A stretch of 64,000 bases of DNA, taken from Allocoleopsis franciscana PCC 7113 (GTDB taxonomy: Bacteria; Cyanobacteriota; Cyanobacteriia; Cyanobacteriales; Coleofasciculaceae). Shown here piece after piece: positions 46,930-55,237 of the stretch (position 1 is its first letter; every line of letters starts with the position of its first letter). The stretch covers positions 5,048,001-5,112,000 of the forward strand of contig NC_019738.1 in NCBI RefSeq assembly GCF_000317515.1, in the 5' to 3' direction. The position numbers and the translations under genes were made by a program. Below the pieces are notes generated by a model, which did no database searches, was not told the DNA's origin, and saw only the letters and a list, made by a program, of their open reading frames with translations.

Positions 46930-48432
46930 ATGATCATTGACGACCAATACTATGACGTAATTATTGTTGGCACGGGTGCAGGCGGCGGAACGCTGGCGCG
47001 AAAGTTGGCACCGACTGGCAAAAAGATTTTGCTTCTAGATAGAGGAGAACTAATCTATCGCGAAAGCTCAGAATTGGTCGATACAGAAGTTTTTAAGAAA
47101 GAGCAATTTCATGCACCTGAACCCTGGTACGACAATTCCGGGGAACCGTTTTATCCGCAAACCTATTATGCCGTTGGTGGCAATACAAAAATCTGGAGTG
47201 GCGTTTTGCAGCGAATGCGCGAACGTGACTTCGAGCAAGTGCAGCATCAGAGTGGGGTTTCTCCTGCATGGCCACTAAAATATCAGGACTTTGAGCCTTA
47301 CTACACAGAAGCTGAGAAGCTGTATCAAGTACACGGTAAACTCGAAGATGACCCCACTGAGCCGCCCCATAGTGAAGCCTATCCGTTTTCAGAAGTAGCT
47401 CATGAGCCAATGGTGCAACGCATTGGGGAGACTCTTTCTCAGCAGGGGTTGCATCCTGTACATTTGCCGCTAGGGTTGGGCGAACACGGTAGAACCGATG
47501 CTGAAGACACGGGAGTGACCCCAATCCTCAACAATGAGAACGTGACGCTGAAAACGTCTGCCAAAGTCGTTTGTCTGCATACCAACCCATCAGGCTCAGA
47601 GATTAAAGCAGTTGAGGCAAAAATTGGGGAGCAGTCCTATTTATTTTTAGGCGATATCGTAGTGCTTGCCTGTGGTGCCGTGAATTCGGCGGCATTGCTG
47701 CTGCGATCGGCTAACGAAAAACACCCCAACGGGCTTGCGAATGGCTCTAATCAGGTCGGGCGAAATTTAATGAAACAACTGCTGTCGGTTGTGGTGCAGT
47801 TAACCTCGACGGCTAATTCTGGGTCATTTTCCCGCACATTAGGGCTAAATGATTTTTATTGGGGAAACAAGGATTTTCCCTATCCGATGGGTCATGTGCA
47901 AAACTCTGGTGGCATTTTTCAAGATGTCATTTTTGCAGAAGCACCCCCTGTTTTATCGGCATTGTCTAGGCTTATGCCCAATTTTGGCTTGCGGCAGTTG
48001 GCAACCCATTCCATCGGTTGGTGGCTGAAAACGGAAGACTTGCCCCATCCCGACAATCGCGTTCGCTATGTGGGAGACAAACTGCGAATTGATTACACGC
48101 CGAATAATGTAGAGGCGCACGATCGCTTGGTGTATCGTTGGGTTGATGTATTGAAAAGCGTTGAGCAGTCTCAGCCCAATGTATTTAACCGCACAACTCA
48201 TCCTCGCAGTGATATGCCTGTACAGGTTGTTGCTAATCAGTGCGGCACCTGTCGGTTTGGAGAAGACCCAGCGACTTCGGTGTTGAATCTGGACTGTCGT
48301 GCCCACGACGTGCATAATCTCTATGTGGTAGACAGCAGTTTTTTCCCCTCTCATGCCAGTGTGAGTCCTGGTTTAACAGTGATTGCCAATGCTTTGCGAG
48401 TTGGCGATCGCTTAATCGAGCAGTTGAAGTAG
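46930..48432 (+). CDS. GMC family FAD-dependent oxidoreductase
   Basis: 500 aa, ATG 46930 with aggagg at ideal spacing. The N-terminal dinucleotide fold is VIIVGTGAGGGTLARKLA; AVGGNTKIWSGVLQRMRERDF matches the GMC cofactor loop and VLACGAVNSAALLLRSA the second FAD strand. The C-terminal block has NQCGTCRFGEDP, a variant of HxxGT, and LYVVDSSFFPSHASVSPGLTVIANALR, typical of GMC members that oxidise sugars, alcohols or sterols. Substrate unknown; a cytoplasmic enzyme, as no signal peptide is seen. Its last 9 codons are part of a direct repeat that reappears at 50579. Confidence 0.88.
   Translation: MIIDDQYYDVIIVGTGAGGGTLARKLAPTGKKILLLDRGELIYRESSELVDTEVFKKEQFHAPEPWYDNSGEPFYPQTYYAVGGNTKIWSGVLQRMRERDFEQVQHQSGVSPAWPLKYQDFEPYYTEAEKLYQVHGKLEDDPTEPPHSEAYPFSEVAHEPMVQRIGETLSQQGLHPVHLPLGLGEHGRTDAEDTGVTPILNNENVTLKTSAKVVCLHTNPSGSEIKAVEAKIGEQSYLFLGDIVVLACGAVNSAALLLRSANEKHPNGLANGSNQVGRNLMKQLLSVVVQLTSTANSGSFSRTLGLNDFYWGNKDFPYPMGHVQNSGGIFQDVIFAEAPPVLSALSRLMPNFGLRQLATHSIGWWLKTEDLPHPDNRVRYVGDKLRIDYTPNNVEAHDRLVYRWVDVLKSVEQSQPNVFNRTTHPRSDMPVQVVANQCGTCRFGEDPATSVLNLDCRAHDVHNLYVVDSSFFPSHASVSPGLTVIANALRVGDRLIEQLK
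48404..48431 (+). repeat. Left copy of the 28-bp direct repeat (3' end of GMC gene)
   Basis: Identical to 50579-50606 over the first 23 bp (starting gcgatcgcttaatcgagc), then one mismatch and four matches. The first 8 bp are a HIP1 octamer, but the next 15 bp are not explained by HIP1. It encodes the last residues DRLIEQLK of the GMC protein. Confidence 0.8.
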
Positions 48433-48529
48433 GCGTTGCTGGAGGATTTGCAGTTCATTATCCACAGGGGTATCGTTCGGGCAGTTCTTCAGCACTGGGA
48501 AGATACTGCAACGGGTTGTACTGTACCAT
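48432..48529 (-). pseudogene. Frameshifted remnant of a Uma2 (DUF820) family gene
   Basis: From ATG 48529 leftward the frame reads MVQYNPLQYLPSAEELPERY and stops early. A shift of one nucleotide after EELP gives NDTPVDNELQILQQ. Together these match the beginning of Uma2 family nuclease-fold proteins (LPSAEELP..DTPVDNELQ), recalled from cyanobacterial genomes. Only about 35 of some 200 residues survive, so the gene is dead. It abuts the left direct repeat. Confidence 0.6.
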
Positions 48530-48646
48530 GACAATTCCCTAGGAGTGACTTACTGCTTGTATCTTAACTAAGTAAGACAAGATGATGATTGCTCCTGGAT
48601 TCAGCACCAGTGGCATAATGGCAGCTAGTGGACTGGATTCTTTACG

Positions 48647-49300
48647 ATGGAACTTTTTACGATTGGGCACTCCAATCACAGCATTGAAGCGTTTATTGCC
48701 CTACTACAACAACATGATGTAACGGCTTTGGTAGATGTGCGATCGCACCCCTACAGCCGCTATTTGCCCCACTTTAACCAGACACAACTTAAAACAGCAC
48801 TATTTGATGTAGGAATTCGCTATGTTTTCCTAGGTCGTGAATTAGGAGCAAGACCCAGCGATCCAAGCTGCTATGTTGACGGCAAAGCTTTGTACGAAAG
48901 AATTGCCTCGACTGACTTATTTTCACAGGGTATTCAGCGGATATTGAAAGGTGCAGCAACCTACAAAATTGCACTGATGTGTGCTGAAAAAGATCCCATC
49001 ACCTGTCATCGGGCTGTTTTAGTATGTCAACACTTACGCGAGTTTGACTTAGATATAAACCACATCTTGAGGAACGGTAATTTAGAGACTCATCAACATC
49101 TTGAAGAAAGACTTTTAGAGCTACATGGGCTAAAGCAACCAGAATTGCTTGAGCCAGTTCAACTGTCGCTATTTAATGATTTATCACTTCCTGCTCACTC
49201 TTCTATTCAATATTCAACCAAAGATTCTCTAAAAGAAGCATACAAGCGACAGGGTAATCAGATTGCCTATGTAGAAAAAGCGGTAATTCAGGATGAGTAA
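48647..49300 (+). CDS. DUF488 family protein (first of two)
   Basis: 217 aa, ATG 48647. MELFTIGHSNHSIEAFIALL and VTALVDVRSHPYSRYLPHFN are the DUF488 hallmarks, followed by LGRELGARP and the Cys motif LMCAEKDPITCHRAVL (Cys112, Cys120-His121-Arg122). The conserved Cys/His/Arg suggest a catalytic or metal/thiol role, but the biochemical activity of the family is not established to my knowledge. About 70 residues after the domain are polar. It overlaps the next gene by 8 bp, so the two are coupled. Confidence 0.85.
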   Translation: MELFTIGHSNHSIEAFIALLQQHDVTALVDVRSHPYSRYLPHFNQTQLKTALFDVGIRYVFLGRELGARPSDPSCYVDGKALYERIASTDLFSQGIQRILKGAATYKIALMCAEKDPITCHRAVLVCQHLREFDLDINHILRNGNLETHQHLEERLLELHGLKQPELLEPVQLSLFNDLSLPAHSSIQYSTKDSLKEAYKRQGNQIAYVEKAVIQDE

Positions 49301-49739
49301 CTCAGTTAATTTATTTACAATTGGTTTTACTAAAAAGACGGCTCAGCAATTCTTTGATACTCTTGTTAACGCTGGAGTAAAAAGAGTTATAGACACGCGC
49401 CTTAATAATATATCCCAATTAGCAGGATTTACTAAACGCAGCGATTTAGAGTATTTTTTACGCAAAATTGGTGATATAGAATACGTTCATATGCTAGAGC
49501 TGGCACCGACTAAAGATATTTTGGATGATTATAAAAAAAATAATGGGAATTGGGAGACTTATGAAAAGAAATTTTTGAATTTAATGAGCGAACGCAAAAT
49601 TGAAAAAAAAATTCCCCCAGAAGTGATTACTGGTAGTTGTCTACTCTGTAGTGAATCAAAACCTCACCATTGCCACCGTCGTCTAGTTGCAGAGTATTTG
49701 AAGGATAAGTGGTCAAACATAAATATATATCATCTCTAA
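49293..49739 (+). CDS. DUF488 family protein (second, short)
   Basis: 148 aa, ATG 49293 inside the end of the preceding gene. It shares NLFTIGFTKKTAQQFFDTL, VKRVIDTRLNN and the Cys motif GSCLLCSESKPHHCHRRLVAEYL (Cys119, Cys127-His128-Arg129) with the first copy, but is shorter and clearly diverged (VDVRSHP is replaced by IDTRLNN), so the pair is an old duplication or two distinct subfamilies working together. Dimer formation with the first is plausible. The third gene of the cassette starts 19 bp downstream. Confidence 0.85.
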   Translation: MSNSVNLFTIGFTKKTAQQFFDTLVNAGVKRVIDTRLNNISQLAGFTKRSDLEYFLRKIGDIEYVHMLELAPTKDILDDYKKNNGNWETYEKKFLNLMSERKIEKKIPPEVITGSCLLCSESKPHHCHRRLVAEYLKDKWSNINIYHL

Positions 49740-49758
49740 AAATTGATGAATCAAATTT

Positions 49759-50556
49759 ATGGCTCAAATTATCTGCTTTGCAAATTCCAAGAAACATGGT
49801 GAACGATGTATTGCAGGTATTGAAATTTCTACAGGTACATGGATTCGCCCTGTGTCCAATTTGGATGATGGTCGGATTCCTAGGAGTATGTGTTTAGTTG
49901 ATGGTGAAGAGCCAAAATTGCTAGACATTCTAGAAATTCCTCTAGCAACTACTGGTTCTGGCTACGAGTGTGAAAATCGCTCGCTCTTGCCTGGAAGATG
50001 GCAGCGAGTAGGACGCGCTTCACTGACAGATATAGTTCTGTACTGTGAACAAGAAATTATTCATAGTCAATGGCTAAATGCTGTTCCTTTTTCCTTCCTA
50101 CAATCACTGCCACCCGATCAGAGACGCACCTTACAACTTATTAGAACAACTGGACTTAATGTACGTCAGTATCCAGACACTCGAAAGTGGGAAGCTTCCT
50201 TGCCAACAGTTAATGGACAACGGATGAGGTCTAAAATTACAGACTTGACTCTTATTGACAAACTTAACCAAGGTATAACTATTGGAAATGAATGCTTAGT
50301 TACTATCAGCCTAGGACAACCTTGGCGCAGGAGTAATTCAGAAGAATTATCCTGCTGGAAATTGGTTGCGGGGGTCATCGAATTGTCAGAATCTGACTTG
50401 ATCTTAGTTGAAATGAGGCGACTTGGCTGGAGTATTGATCAAGGACGGGAATATTTGCAGCGAACTTACAATAAGCAATTACGCAAGCAGTTGACTGCTA
50501 CTGAAATGACTCAGTTCTTGAGCTACCTAAAATCCCTTCCTACAAGCAGTCCATGA
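49759..50556 (+). CDS. Dual OB-domain-containing protein (DuOB-like)
   Basis: 265 aa, ATG 49759. The N-terminus MAQIICFANSKKHGERCIAG, followed by GTWIRPVSN, and a second similar beta-rich part (GNECLVTISLGQPWRRS, CWKLVAGVIEL) match what I recall as 'dual OB domain-containing' proteins, predicted nucleic-acid or nucleotide binders. Further back, RRLGWSIDQGREYLQRTYNKQLRKQL is a C-terminal helical part rich in Arg/Lys. It is the last gene of the three-gene cassette with both DUF488 genes. A shared role in nucleic-acid sensing or genome defence is inference only. Confidence 0.65.
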   Translation: MAQIICFANSKKHGERCIAGIEISTGTWIRPVSNLDDGRIPRSMCLVDGEEPKLLDILEIPLATTGSGYECENRSLLPGRWQRVGRASLTDIVLYCEQEIIHSQWLNAVPFSFLQSLPPDQRRTLQLIRTTGLNVRQYPDTRKWEASLPTVNGQRMRSKITDLTLIDKLNQGITIGNECLVTISLGQPWRRSNSEELSCWKLVAGVIELSESDLILVEMRRLGWSIDQGREYLQRTYNKQLRKQLTATEMTQFLSYLKSLPTSSP

Positions 50557-50578
50557 GGACTTCCTCTAGGAACTTACT

Positions 50579-50606
50579 GCGATCGCTTAATCGAGCAGTT
50601 GCAGTA
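50579..50606 (+). repeat. Right copy of the 28-bp direct repeat
   Basis: Repeats the end of the GMC gene (see 48404-48431) and would encode DRLIEQLQ and a stop in the plus frame, one residue different from the original. It lies 23 bp after the dual-OB gene and 45 bp before the convergent CHAT-protein gene. Together the two copies bracket a segment of about 2.15 kb. Confidence 0.8.
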
Positions 50607-50650: not shown

Positions 50651-53600
50651 TTACCAAGGACTACCAATCATCGTAAATCCAGACCAGTAATTGGGATGTG
50701 AGAAATCCCGATCTCCCAGCTTTGCCAGTTCCGGCGGCAGAGGCAGCTTCTCCCCCGTCGTAGTGCGTAACTCCCCACCCTGCAAGCGAACCTCTCCCCT
50801 CAGCATTGCCAGTTGCGCCTGTTGTAGCGCCTGCGCTTTGATCGGTGCCTGCTTCAACTGTTGATAAAATTCCGTCATCAGCGCCAACGTCCCTTCATCG
50901 CTGATGTTCCACACACTCCCCAAAACCGACTTAACCCCCGCTTGTGCCGCTAACCCAGCAAAGCCCAACTCGGCTTCGCGATCGCCCAATGCCGTGCGAC
51001 AAGCACTCAATACTAATAACTCCACCGGTGGGTTATTCCAGCCTAACTGCGGCAACTCACCCAGGGATAGCTTACTGTTCCACAGACGAATGTAAGTATT
51101 ATCCCGTGTCCCCGGTCTAAAGCGGGCATGAGTCGCTAGGTGAACAATACCAAACGGCTTCTGGCGGCGTTGGGCTTTCAGATTATTCAACGTAAAGCCT
51201 TGATTGAGGTAAGACTTACCCTGCCACAACCGTGAAGTAATCAAGGACAACTCCACGGGTACCGCCGGTAAGGGGTTTTCATCCGTGAATTGGGACGCCC
51301 CCATCGCCAGCACTTGAGAATTTTTGATGTCTTGGTATTGGGTATTGGTTAAGCCCAAACTGGGCATCATCCCGATACTATACCGTTCCACTAAAAATTT
51401 CCGACCGTCGTAAAGAGCCGCCATCGGCAGCGAACGCAAACCCACATCCATGATATAGACGAGATTTTGGATGCCCTCAGTTTGTAAATCTTTCTTAATC
51501 GGTGCCACCAGCCATTGATCCAGTTGCTCTGCCATAGGAATGTAGCGATGGCGCGGTTGCCTGGGATCAGTAATGCGACTTCGCAAAAGGCTTGCCATTG
51601 CCACCACCTGAGCTCGTGTCGTATTGGGCACGCGCCGCCCAATCGCTTTCCCATCTGCCGTCACCACGAGCAGTTGTAATTGATCAGTATCTTTGGGAAT
51701 GCGCTGGAGGAGGCGTTGAGTTTGAGTCTCTAGTCCTGAATTAGCTGTATCCTCTGTTGCCTCCGGGACTTGGGTATCGGGTACAAATACGGCATAAACT
51801 AGAGCTGATTTTACACCTGTGGCGGCCTGATTTTTCCGCAGTGTCGCACGAGCTTGTTCTAAAGAGACAGTTTCACTCAACGGGAGTCCTAGATACTGCT
51901 CGAATTGGTAGGTGAAGAACTCCTCCATTTCCGCAAAAGCGGCATCAATCTCCAGCCAGCCGATACTTGGTGGTAGTTCGAGTAGCGCTAAGGTTTTGTC
52001 ATTATCCGGGATATTACCCTGGTAGTCACGATTGAACAAGACGTTTTGGTCTAGGAAAAATGACGGAGTAACCAGACTAATATCGCCCAACTTGAATGGG
52101 CCGGGGAATGTCCGAAAGGGAGAAAGGGTATCAATTCCATTGGTAATTGCGCTAGATGTACCATTCAATCCTGCATTTCCCACATCAAAGGGAGTGTTCA
52201 AGCTACCACCGCCATGCCGGATTGTAATTGAACCGCCTCCCACACCCCCAGCCGTAGAAATGCTGGCGGTTATGCCATTTTGAGCCGTGAAACTGCCCGT
52301 TGCCCGGAAAAACTGGTCAGTCGTAATATCAACGGTGCCCCCGGTGCCCCCTGTTCCCCCTTGGGCATTAATCGAAACCACTTGGATATCATTGAGAGGG
52401 TCAAGGAAAACATTACCCCCATTGCCAGAACTGGCGCTGGAATCGATCGCCCCAGTCGTCATCTGAGTCCGAGCTGAAATTGCGATCGCGCCTCCTCCAG
52501 TGACTCCTGAAGCGTTGAGGTTACCTGTAGTAATTGCTCCCTCAGTACTCTTCAGGGTAATATCTCCTCCATTGCCAGTCGTGGAGCTAGTATTTAGCGT
52601 TCCGGCACGAGTATCAATATTGCCACTATTGCTAGTTATCGTAATCTGCCGACCTGGATTGATGATAGAGCTAGTGGTAATCCCTTGATTGGCGATTAGC
52701 GTAATGTCACCCGCTCCAGTTATCGTAAAACCGTTGGTGTTAATCGAGCCATTGGCTGATTGCAGCGTGACTGGGGTATTAAATGTGACATTATCGCTCA
52801 GGGTAATATCACCACTGCTGTCATTGCCTCCAATAGCCATAGAAGAAAAGCCATTGAATTGTGCCAGGGCGGCGGCACTCAGGAAGGTTCCGCCGATGTC
52901 CAGATTCAGATTGGGGGTAACCGGCTGCAACCGTAAATTGCCCGTACCAGTCCCAGCAGAAGTACCGTCAAAAATCATTTTGTCAGCAGACAGGGTAAGA
53001 TTGCCGCTTCCTGAAGCGATATTTGCATTGGTTACATAAATACCCGTATTGCTGCTATTTCCTGTGAACTCAACGTTGCCGTTTTCTGAAGTAATATTCC
53101 CATTAACAAAGATGCCTATGGCAGAGTCGTTAGTTCCCTGCGTCGTGCTGTTGAAGGTAATGTCTCCTCCTTTGGAATCGATCTCATTATTGTTAAAGAT
53201 GCCAATTTCAGTAAGGCTATTCCCTGTAAAATTGATATCTCCACCCTGTGAGAGAACAACTCCTTCCGAACTAATTCCCCTACCGGGTTCACCCATACCC
53301 ATACCCATGCCCGTACTCGTCCCATCAAAGGTGATTGTTCCCCCTCCGGAGTCGATTGTGCTGGCGTCTTTGTTCAAAATGCCAACATAACTGCTGCTAC
53401 TGCCAGTGAAGACGATATTCCCACCCTCCGAGGTGATACTCTCATTCTCATTAACGAAGATGCCAGCAGATAGGCCAGATCCGATACTCGTCCCGTTAAA
53501 GGTGATGTTCCCACCTCCGGAGTTGATCGAACTGTTGACGAAGATGCCATGTATATCGGTGCCGTTGCTGGTTCCATTGATAGTGATATTTCCACCTAAC

Positions 53601-55237
53601 GTGGAGATGGCATCATTGATTTGAACTCTGCCTGCACCGCTATTATCTCTGTTGGCATTTAGATTCAAATTCAGCTTGCCACTCGTAGAACTGATTCCCG
53701 CATTCAGAATAATGTCATTGTCAGCATCCAATGTAAGAGTCGCCTCTCCACCGACTGTCTTGTTGATCGGTGCATCGGTATTTTGAGTGATGTTGCCTTG
53801 GTCAGTGCCTCCAATATCCGTTGTAATCGTAACGTTAGTGCCAGTGTTAAGTGCGGTATTGATGTTGGCGACATCCACCTGATTGGTGCCAATCGCACCG
53901 CCCCCGCCATTGACAATCGTGATATCCGTTGGGTCAATCAACCAAGTGCCACCTGTACCATTAAAAGCAGAAGCATCGGGAGTACTGGTGAGATTGAGAA
54001 ACTGCTTACCAGAGGTTTCAATCAATCCGCCATTCCCAGAAAATACTCCTCCCCGTGCAGTTAAGGTTCCGTGGATGCTGGCAGTATCCGTGGCAAACAC
54101 GATCACTCTCCCACCATCACCGCTATTCAGGGCGTCGGCAGTAATCATCGAGTCATGACTGACAAGGGTTTGGGACGCATTCGGAACAGTGCCTGTACCC
54201 CGATAATCCCCGCCCATTCGCACCGTGCCACCGCCATTAGAACCATTGGCGCTAATATGGGCACCCAAAACTTCCACTTGGTTGCCCAAGACATTCACGA
54301 CACCGCCAGTTTCACCCGCAGCATCCAAAGTACCAGAGGCAGTAGCGGTTCCCGCTTCAGTGGAAATTACTTGTCCAGAATTAGTTAGTACTACCTGTCC
54401 TGAAGAATTAACTGCAACACCCGATGCCACAGTCCCACCGCTTCCAGTCAGCAACTGGGGCAAAGAAAGCGGTGTAATTCCGGAAGTAGCCGCAGTTGCT
54501 GTTGGGTCAATCTCCAAACTGAGTAGATGTCCCGCTTGACTCAGGCGAACTAAATTCGACCCAGGCACAGCCGCCATCATAATTTGTCCCCCTGGTGCCG
54601 AAAGTTGCCCGGTATTGACAACAGTGCCACCCAATAAGGTTAAATTCTGTCCCTGACTAACTGCCAAATTGCCAGCATTGATAATACTTCCTGGCTGATT
54701 TGTGGTGAAGGCAAATGTACTCGGTGTTCCGACTAATGCCGTGTAATTATTAACACCTGTAGCATTAAACCAATTATCCTTAAAACCAATTCCATCAGCG
54801 GTCGTTGCGGTAAAGGCAGCAGGTACATTTAAGCTAGCATTTGTGCCAAAGACAATTCCGGCTGGATTCATCAAAAATAAGTTGGAATTGCCCCCTGTTA
54901 CCTGAATTAAACCATTAATAACTGAAGGGTCACCACCAGTTACACGTCCCAGGATATTCTGGATATTCGGGTTCGAGAGAAAATTTGCAGTCTGATTGGC
55001 GTTAAGACCAAACTGAGAGAAACTATGAAAGAGATTCGCTCCATCTCCTGATAAACGACCCCCCGTGATATCAATGCGGTTGCCATCAGGAGTAACCTGG
55101 GTGTCAGTGCCATCGGCAGCAGGAATAATCGGTTGAGCAGATACCGATTTAGCGGCTTTCAATGTTAAAGTAGTGGCTGTGAAAGGAATACATCCTACCA
55201 GAGATAGAACTATCAGTAAATGTTGAGTTCTTTTCAT
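50651..55237 (-). CDS. Two-partner-secretion haemagglutinin-like protein with C-terminal CHAT domain
   Basis: 1,528 aa, ATG 55237. A signal peptide (MKRTQHLLIVLSLVGCIPF, cleavage near SVSAQP) is followed by a TPS/filamentous haemagglutinin domain (DGNRIDITGGRLSGDGANLF, FLSNPNIQNILGRVTGGDPS, GLIQVTGGNSNLFLMNPAGI) that guides export through an outer-membrane TpsB pore. A long beta-helix-type region rich in Gly, Asn, Thr (GGNI.F.G-like repeats) runs to about 1000. The C-terminal 350 residues form a CHAT caspase-like peptidase with His1370 (HLATHARF) and Cys1413 (LVLSACRTALGD). No TpsB gene is adjacent. Many apparent plus-strand frames inside are shadows of this gene. Confidence 0.92.
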   Translation of the reverse strand: MKRTQHLLIVLSLVGCIPFTATTLTLKAAKSVSAQPIIPAADGTDTQVTPDGNRIDITGGRLSGDGANLFHSFSQFGLNANQTANFLSNPNIQNILGRVTGGDPSVINGLIQVTGGNSNLFLMNPAGIVFGTNASLNVPAAFTATTADGIGFKDNWFNATGVNNYTALVGTPSTFAFTTNQPGSIINAGNLAVSQGQNLTLLGGTVVNTGQLSAPGGQIMMAAVPGSNLVRLSQAGHLLSLEIDPTATAATSGITPLSLPQLLTGSGGTVASGVAVNSSGQVVLTNSGQVISTEAGTATASGTLDAAGETGGVVNVLGNQVEVLGAHISANGSNGGGTVRMGGDYRGTGTVPNASQTLVSHDSMITADALNSGDGGRVIVFATDTASIHGTLTARGGVFSGNGGLIETSGKQFLNLTSTPDASAFNGTGGTWLIDPTDITIVNGGGGAIGTNQVDVANINTALNTGTNVTITTDIGGTDQGNITQNTDAPINKTVGGEATLTLDADNDIILNAGISSTSGKLNLNLNANRDNSGAGRVQINDAISTLGGNITINGTSNGTDIHGIFVNSSINSGGGNITFNGTSIGSGLSAGIFVNENESITSEGGNIVFTGSSSSYVGILNKDASTIDSGGGTITFDGTSTGMGMGMGEPGRGISSEGVVLSQGGDINFTGNSLTEIGIFNNNEIDSKGGDITFNSTTQGTNDSAIGIFVNGNITSENGNVEFTGNSSNTGIYVTNANIASGSGNLTLSADKMIFDGTSAGTGTGNLRLQPVTPNLNLDIGGTFLSAAALAQFNGFSSMAIGGNDSSGDITLSDNVTFNTPVTLQSANGSINTNGFTITGAGDITLIANQGITTSSIINPGRQITITSNSGNIDTRAGTLNTSSTTGNGGDITLKSTEGAITTGNLNASGVTGGGAIAISARTQMTTGAIDSSASSGNGGNVFLDPLNDIQVVSINAQGGTGGTGGTVDITTDQFFRATGSFTAQNGITASISTAGGVGGGSITIRHGGGSLNTPFDVGNAGLNGTSSAITNGIDTLSPFRTFPGPFKLGDISLVTPSFFLDQNVLFNRDYQGNIPDNDKTLALLELPPSIGWLEIDAAFAEMEEFFTYQFEQYLGLPLSETVSLEQARATLRKNQAATGVKSALVYAVFVPDTQVPEATEDTANSGLETQTQRLLQRIPKDTDQLQLLVVTADGKAIGRRVPNTTRAQVVAMASLLRSRITDPRQPRHRYIPMAEQLDQWLVAPIKKDLQTEGIQNLVYIMDVGLRSLPMAALYDGRKFLVERYSIGMMPSLGLTNTQYQDIKNSQVLAMGASQFTDENPLPAVPVELSLITSRLWQGKSYLNQGFTLNNLKAQRRQKPFGIVHLATHARFRPGTRDNTYIRLWNSKLSLGELPQLGWNNPPVELLVLSACRTALGDREAELGFAGLAAQAGVKSVLGSVWNISDEGTLALMTEFYQQLKQAPIKAQALQQAQLAMLRGEVRLQGGELRTTTGEKLPLPPELAKLGDRDFSHPNYWSGFTMIGSPW

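Follow-up and report, generated by a model that had tools for sequence, protein, structure and literature searches.

Here we describe a three-gene cassette in a 64,000-nucleotide stretch of the genome of the cyanobacterium Allocoleopsis franciscana PCC 7113 (NC_019738.1, positions 5,048,001 to 5,112,000), hereafter called the window. The cassette lies behind a GMC oxidoreductase gene and encodes two DUF488 proteins and a tandem OB-fold protein (DuOB), all three of which match PDC-M45, a candidate anti-phage system of PADLOC (database of 2023). We read the trio as a chromosomal copy of a PDC-M45 conflict module in the order B-C-A that would act on nucleic acid at replication, with DuOB as the binder, the DUF488 proteins as the actors and a clamp-binding peptide as the tether, a reading to which we give about an even chance of being right. 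Judged from the sequence, the new part is a putative clamp-type motif in the first DUF488 protein and its link with gene order. The cassette stands at a site that looks like a cargo site rebuilt several times by recombination between copies of the GMC 3' end.

Identity and distribution of the trio

Comparison of the first DUF488 protein, M45B (positions 48647-49300 of the window, plus strand, 217 aa), revealed matches with PF04343 (8e-25) and with the hidden Markov model (HMM) of PDC-M45B (PDLC04657, 9.3e-78). The second, M45C (49293-49739, plus strand, 148 aa), is a DUF488-N3a protein that matched PF04343 (6e-24), PF22751 (2.6e-9) and PDC-M45C (PDLC04658, 1.1e-71). M45A, which is DuOB (49759-50556, plus strand, 265 aa), has a C-terminal helical part after its tandem OB folds and matched PF22557 (3e-39) and PDC-M45A (PDLC04653, 5.4e-27). 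These are three real genes, as an earlier note on this DNA had held; the two DUF488 open reading frames (ORFs) overlap by 8 nt and the DuOB ORF starts 19 nt after them. The same note had taken the cassette for an undescribed system, which it is not, because all three genes are those of PDC-M45; membership is defined here by HMM matches and adjacency, and the window trio shows the same operon logic, with its genes adjacent on one strand. The Pfam descriptions of PF22751 and PF22557, the families matched by M45C and DuOB respectively, record no biochemical function, and a literature search for the term PDC-M45 found no paper.

The distribution of the module was surveyed in 194 genomes sampled evenly across the class. 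Of these, 30 had DuOB, 29 had M45C and 29 had M45B; of the last, one has fragments only and 28 entered the linkage count. At least one member was found in 34 genomes and all three in 24, a patchy presence in about 15% of genomes. The genes did not occur mostly apart, as DuOB and M45C were adjacent and on the same strand in 28 of the 28 genomes that carried both (Fisher p 3e-30), usually in the order B-C-A. In this text G numbers denote genomes (G000 is that of the window, the others are those compared with it) and L numbers denote loci or contigs. DuOB was interrupted by transposase genes in two genomes (G230 and G088) and was shortened in others; therefore, the module has been gained and lost. 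A scan of genome contigs for DuOB returned one locus, in a metagenome-assembled genome labelled Calothrix, DuOB probably being too divergent for a pattern search.

Relatives of M45C (42-61% identity) were also found on 38 viral contigs (IMG/VR), where the arrangement was DuOB-C in 23, DuOB-B-C in 8, B-C-A in 2, B-C in 1 and C alone in 4. DuOB and M45C occurred together on 33 of the 38, with DuOB first in 31, and one viral contig (L189:4317-5447) carries a B-C fusion with both DUF488 domains in a single 377-aa protein. Among the neighbours of the viral genes, 21 formed one cluster by BLAST, and the member tested was an mSLOG-DUF4326 fusion. This DuOB - DUF488C - mSLOG-DUF4326 variant, in which another cysteine-motif protein replaces M45B, was seen at L163:4345-6022 and about 20 similar viral loci as well as at L223 and L227, and the DuOB-DUF488-DUF4326 order is likewise present on Leclercia and Acinetobacter plasmids. 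An 8-kb Salmonella plasmid (L226:4787-5820) has a DUF488-DUF4326 pair downstream of an ISEcp1 beta-lactamase unit, with no DuOB annotated beside the pair. Stand-alone M45C-like genes, with a possible role in DNA repair, were found at L224:4001-4432, L225:4010-4441 and L228:4007-4438. One study placed DUF4326 in the rhodanese-phosphatase superfamily and predicted that it processes ADP-ribose phosphates (PMC9503650), and another predicted that it connects NAD signalling to the modification and replication of DNA (PMC7824862). Such proteins adjoin DuOB-M45C on phages and plasmids, whereas the window cassette lacks the mSLOG-DUF4326 protein and has a second DUF488 protein in its place. The window system, with its B-C-A order and a clamp-type motif in M45B, differs in this way from the mobile-element versions of PDC-M45, which are DuOB-first and often have mSLOG-DUF4326 in place of M45B.

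Certain relatives of the trio sit within BREX operons. A viral contig (L154:3566-10062) has the order DuOB-DUF488-DUF488-PglZ-BrxL (PglZ E=0, BrxL 1e-293), another (L156:3617-10067) carries the trio with BrxL, and in G088 (L120) M45C-DuOB lies between PglX and BrxC, which suggests that the trio can serve as a BREX accessory. In the window, however, no BREX gene (PglZ, BrxC/BrxL) adjoins the trio, whose neighbours are the GMC gene, a kinase-like ORF and a TPS-CHAT gene, and the trio is not a BREX system by itself. On two plasmids, from Allochromatium and Rhodothermus, the trio has CRISPR neighbours, namely csx16 and csm6, or cas1-cas2. The earlier proposal of a transferable module is therefore supported, by strong adjacency and co-occurrence, by patchy presence, and by relatives on phage-like contigs and plasmids, within BREX operons and beside CRISPR genes.

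The QLSLF peptide and other protein features

M45B carries the pentapeptide QLSLF at residues 172-176 (codons at 49160-49174, plus strand), in a disordered-looking linker between the protein core and a C-terminal helix. Bacterial proteins that bind the sliding clamp have the consensus QL[S/D]LF, PolC has QLSLF almost without exception, and such peptides are typical of polymerases and repair enzymes (PMC3919608); QLxLF has been tested by mutation (PMC4549789). The five QLSLF columns are 89-97% conserved (93%), as compared to about 30% for the surrounding linker. A clamp-type peptide was present in 33 of 35 cyanobacterial M45B homologues (QLSLF in 29 and QTSLF, QLALF, QLDLF and QLSLW in one each), and B-C-A systems outside the class had QLNLF (the Rhodothermus plasmid) or QLDLL and QMTLF (viral contigs). 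None was found in the DuOB-B-C systems of the 7 viral contigs read, of 3 proteobacterial plasmids and of G060, nor in L084, which is a B-C-A system. The B-C-A and DuOB-first subtypes are probably clades, so the link between motif and gene order does not represent many independent events. M45B shares the exact consensus peptide, placed in a flexible linker, with sliding-clamp clients such as PolC and transposases, but it has no polymerase, mismatch-repair or transposase domain, and clamp binding by it is putative.

Alignment of 30 M45B sequences revealed the invariant residues G7-H-S9, D30-V-R-S33, C75-Y76 and C112-x-E-x-D-P-x-x-C120-H-R122, the last of which begins C112-A-E in the window protein. 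In M45C, the invariant residues were D34-x-R36, S41-Q-L43, W87, C119-S-E121 and C127-H-R-R130, which include the motif C119-S-E-x-x-P-x-x-C127-H-R129. The common motif C-x-E-x-x-P-x-x-C-H-R was invariant or nearly so in both DUF488 proteins (36-41 sequences), and both therefore look catalytically competent. In the AlphaFold model of M45B (predicted local distance difference test, pLDDT, 86), values in the linker were 55-72 and a confident C-terminal helix spanned residues 191-206. The structural matches of this model were a mixture of phosphatases and methyltransferases, laforin phosphatase (Z 8.6) being tied with methyltransferases of another family; structure therefore did not settle the superfamily of M45B. 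The DuOB model (pLDDT 94) aligned to OB folds over residues 1-95 and again over about 96-210, each with Z 6-7.4; the matched folds were those of telomere end-binding protein, PriB, SSB, RecO and the BrxL N-terminal region, the best being the second half against BrxL (Z 7.4), a further likeness to BREX. These alignments of predicted structures support the name 'dual OB' and nucleic-acid binding by DuOB, and they do not support a specific partner. Among solved structures, sequence comparison gave no close match for M45B and chance-level matches only for M45C and DuOB.

Possible roles of the module

In the conflict module that we favour, DuOB would bind single-stranded or abnormal nucleic acid from an invading or damaged replicon, and this nucleic acid, or else a nucleotide signal, would be the substrate on which the DUF488 pair performs cysteine-dependent chemistry of the rhodanese/phosphatase superfamily. 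M45B and M45C likely form a heterodimer, since they are translationally coupled and are fused in one viral contig. QLSLF would tether the first DUF488 protein to the DnaN sliding clamp, and the module would thus act at replicating DNA; in the phage and plasmid versions, the mSLOG-DUF4326 protein would stand in for M45B. Several observations weigh against this reading. The literature search found no experimental demonstration of defence for this family. PADLOC families were not in excess near 20 cyanobacterial chromosomal loci (140 neighbour proteins) as compared to 19 controls (133), with 109 versus 132 matched, although this is a weak test because it counts by family and not by locus; BREX matches fell in the case set, and Cas12k, Septu-like and methyltransferase matches in the control set. 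DuOB-first versions of M45B keep [DE][LMF]F where SLF sits, so that the docking site of the LF pair may be on a partner within the complex rather than on the clamp. With Z values of 7-9, the structural matches of OB and DUF488 are weak in absolute terms, and plasmids carry genes for stand-alone M45C-like proteins (51-59% identical) next to uvrA or uvrB in clusters for formaldehyde resistance.

That last context speaks for a DNA-repair or damage-tolerance module at replication forks, spread because it helps mobile DNA to survive. DuOB would then hold single strands, the DUF488 enzymes would process a damaged base or DNA end, and the clamp motif would bring them to the fork, in keeping with the known use of such peptides by polymerases and repair enzymes (PMC3919608) and with the resemblance of the DuOB halves to the OB folds of SSB, PriB, RecO and telomere-end proteins. 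Given the close M45C relatives found with uvrA/uvrB and formaldehyde detoxification genes, together with the clamp motif, we regard this role as unlikely though plausible; the embedding in BREX operons, the CRISPR neighbours, the presence in 15% of genomes and the decay by transposase insertion look like conflict genes and not like housekeeping repair. A different role, improbable in our view, is that of a nucleotide-signal or counter-signal module, in which NAD-dependent immune systems would make phosphate or ADP-ribose derivatives, the DUF488 and DUF4326 enzymes would clear these away and DuOB would act as sensor, the whole serving phages and plasmids as an anti-defence device. The mSLOG-DUF4326 partner of DUF488 on mobile elements fits such a role, as do the proposed links of DUF4326 to ADP-ribose phosphate processing (PMC9503650) and of NAD signalling to DNA modification and replication (PMC7824862), but SLOG and other NAD domains are absent from the chromosomal B-C-A form, and its clamp motif and tandem OB protein point towards DNA rather than a soluble nucleotide.

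Within the favoured reading of a conflict module at replication, we tentatively suggest a more specific picture that also leaves room for repair and that we hold to be somewhat short of an even chance. The B-C-A form of M45 would be a clamp-tethered nucleic-acid sensor and enzyme that patrols replication forks, in conflict or in repair, with DUF488 held on DnaN through QLSLF and DuOB reading single-stranded DNA; the mobile DuOB-DUF488C-mSLOG/DUF4326 form would be a re-wired sister with a nucleotide-signal subunit.

The GMC locus and its repeats

The GMC oxidoreductase gene (46930-48432, plus strand; PF05199 5e-19, PF00732 5e-10) has orthologues of 88-92% identity in G001, G004, G010 and G035, and its 3' end is the source of the repeats that flank the cassette. 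The earlier note had reported a 28-bp direct repeat here, which is borne out with 27 of 28 positions identical (23 nt exact, one mismatch, four matches). The left copy (48404-48431, plus strand) comprises the final codons of the GMC gene; the right copy (50579-50606, plus strand) would read DRLIEQLQ-stop in the GMC frame, with no gene around it, and is a shortened form of a 57-bp copy in G001, a genome of the same genus. HIP1 is a palindrome over-represented in cyanobacteria, with 39 copies in the window; these copies, photosynthesis genes close to the loci of relatives and the Calothrix match agree with a cyanobacterial origin. The left copy starts with it, and since nucleotides 1-8 of the repeat are GCGATCGC, the HIP1 palindrome, the informative part is 20 nt. 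Pairs with HIP1 and 15 more exact bases are expected about 1e-6 times in the window by estimate, and the repeat is thus not due to chance. Elsewhere in G000 (L002:1501-1535; G000:C1:7046462-7046496), the GMC 3' end and the bases after it occur a third time (34-35 nt), at an unrelated intergenic site flanked by a small HTH-like gene and by an ORF of the opposite strand; this copy starts exactly at HIP1.

Relatives revealed a more complex history. G001 carries the same trio, bounded by the same GMC gene and a damaged CHAT gene, in the order GMC, a Spo0M gene, a partial copy of 53 bp and one of about 109 bp of the GMC 3' end, the trio, the 57-bp copy and CHAT. In G004, of the same family, the intact GMC gene runs straight into GGAGAGAGTTTTAGCCAT, the sequence with which the right repeat copy continues in the window, behind which stand a toxin-antitoxin-like pair with a PIN domain, a GMC 3'-end copy of 131 bp and an AIPR gene. 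In G039 a 125-bp copy adjoins an HNH gene, with no long GMC match. In G035, where cytochrome oxidase genes are close to the GMC gene just as they are in the window, there is one GMC 3' end and the cassette is absent. Starting from a G001-like arrangement, the window could arise if the Spo0M segment that lies between two copies were lost and about 90 bp were deleted at the right copy, leaving 28 bp; gain of the Spo0M segment, the reverse direction, is likewise possible. A clean single insertion with a 28-bp target duplication is ruled out by the longer and additional copies in G001 and G004. The proposal that the cassette was inserted behind, or exchanged into, the GMC 3' end thus holds in part: the single GMC end of G035 without a cassette agrees with it, but the repeat is not the clean boundary of one insertion and not its footprint, as G001 has several copies of 53-109 bp and a Spo0M gene besides, and copies of this kind have different cargo next to them in other places. 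Pieces of the GMC 3' end would instead have been repeatedly duplicated and reshuffled, the short right repeat of the window being a leftover of deletion.

Two other origins of the repeats were considered, as a question separate from the role of the module and scored apart from it. The repeats might be attachment sites of a site-specific integrating element with the trio as its non-autonomous cargo. In favour of this, the near-identical repeats lie where a gene ends, and that gene is left unbroken; the right copy continues into the sequence that follows GMC in G004, and several cargo types (Spo0M, the PIN toxin-antitoxin pair, the trio and HNH) stand between or beside copies. Such an element is nevertheless not supported and is in our judgement rather unlikely, because there is no recombinase gene between the repeat copies, where the ORFs are M45B, M45C and DuOB together with a Uma2 remnant, and because the left ends of the copies vary (window positions 48310, 48333, 48375 and 48404), with no constant boundary or core edge; the third G000 copy, in an unrelated place, has 34 nt only. 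The repeats might also be an accident of HIP1-rich DNA, arising by short template switches or deletions that start at the palindrome. The two short G000 copies do start exactly at HIP1 and the right junction is explained by deletion relative to G001, but the copies in G001, G004 and G039 reach about 28-100 bp to the left of HIP1; the original duplications therefore did not start there, and we consider this origin improbable.

A Uma2-family remnant (5' end and upstream region; 48442-48570, minus strand) lies antisense to the cassette and is 88% identical to a region of G030 C12, where its counterpart is the start of a 236-aa ORF that matches Uma2 (PF05685, 4.9e-17). An inner 55-bp direct repeat with a CTTGTATCTTAACTAGGTAAGACAAG core is represented in the window by its left copy only (48526-48579, plus strand), and in G001 it is present on both sides of the trio (L040:3843-3790 and 5894-5825). 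The right neighbour, a TPS-CHAT protein (50651-55237, minus strand; PF12770 1e-68, PF05860 1e-44), converges on the cassette, and one large kinase-like ORF lies between the GMC gene and the cytochrome oxidase genes. Promoter and terminator scans, which gave fewer sites than in shuffled sequences, were uninformative.

The GMC locus thus appears to provide a small worked example of a cyanobacterial cargo site rebuilt around duplicated gene ends while itself holding no recombinase gene. Bacteria, phages and resistance plasmids all carry DUF488 and DuOB proteins, and the finding that mSLOG-DUF4326 takes the position of M45B on mobile elements suggests that DuOB and M45C form a core with interchangeable partners. 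The conserved clamp-type peptide, limited to one gene-order subtype, offers a direct and cheap test of where the module acts.

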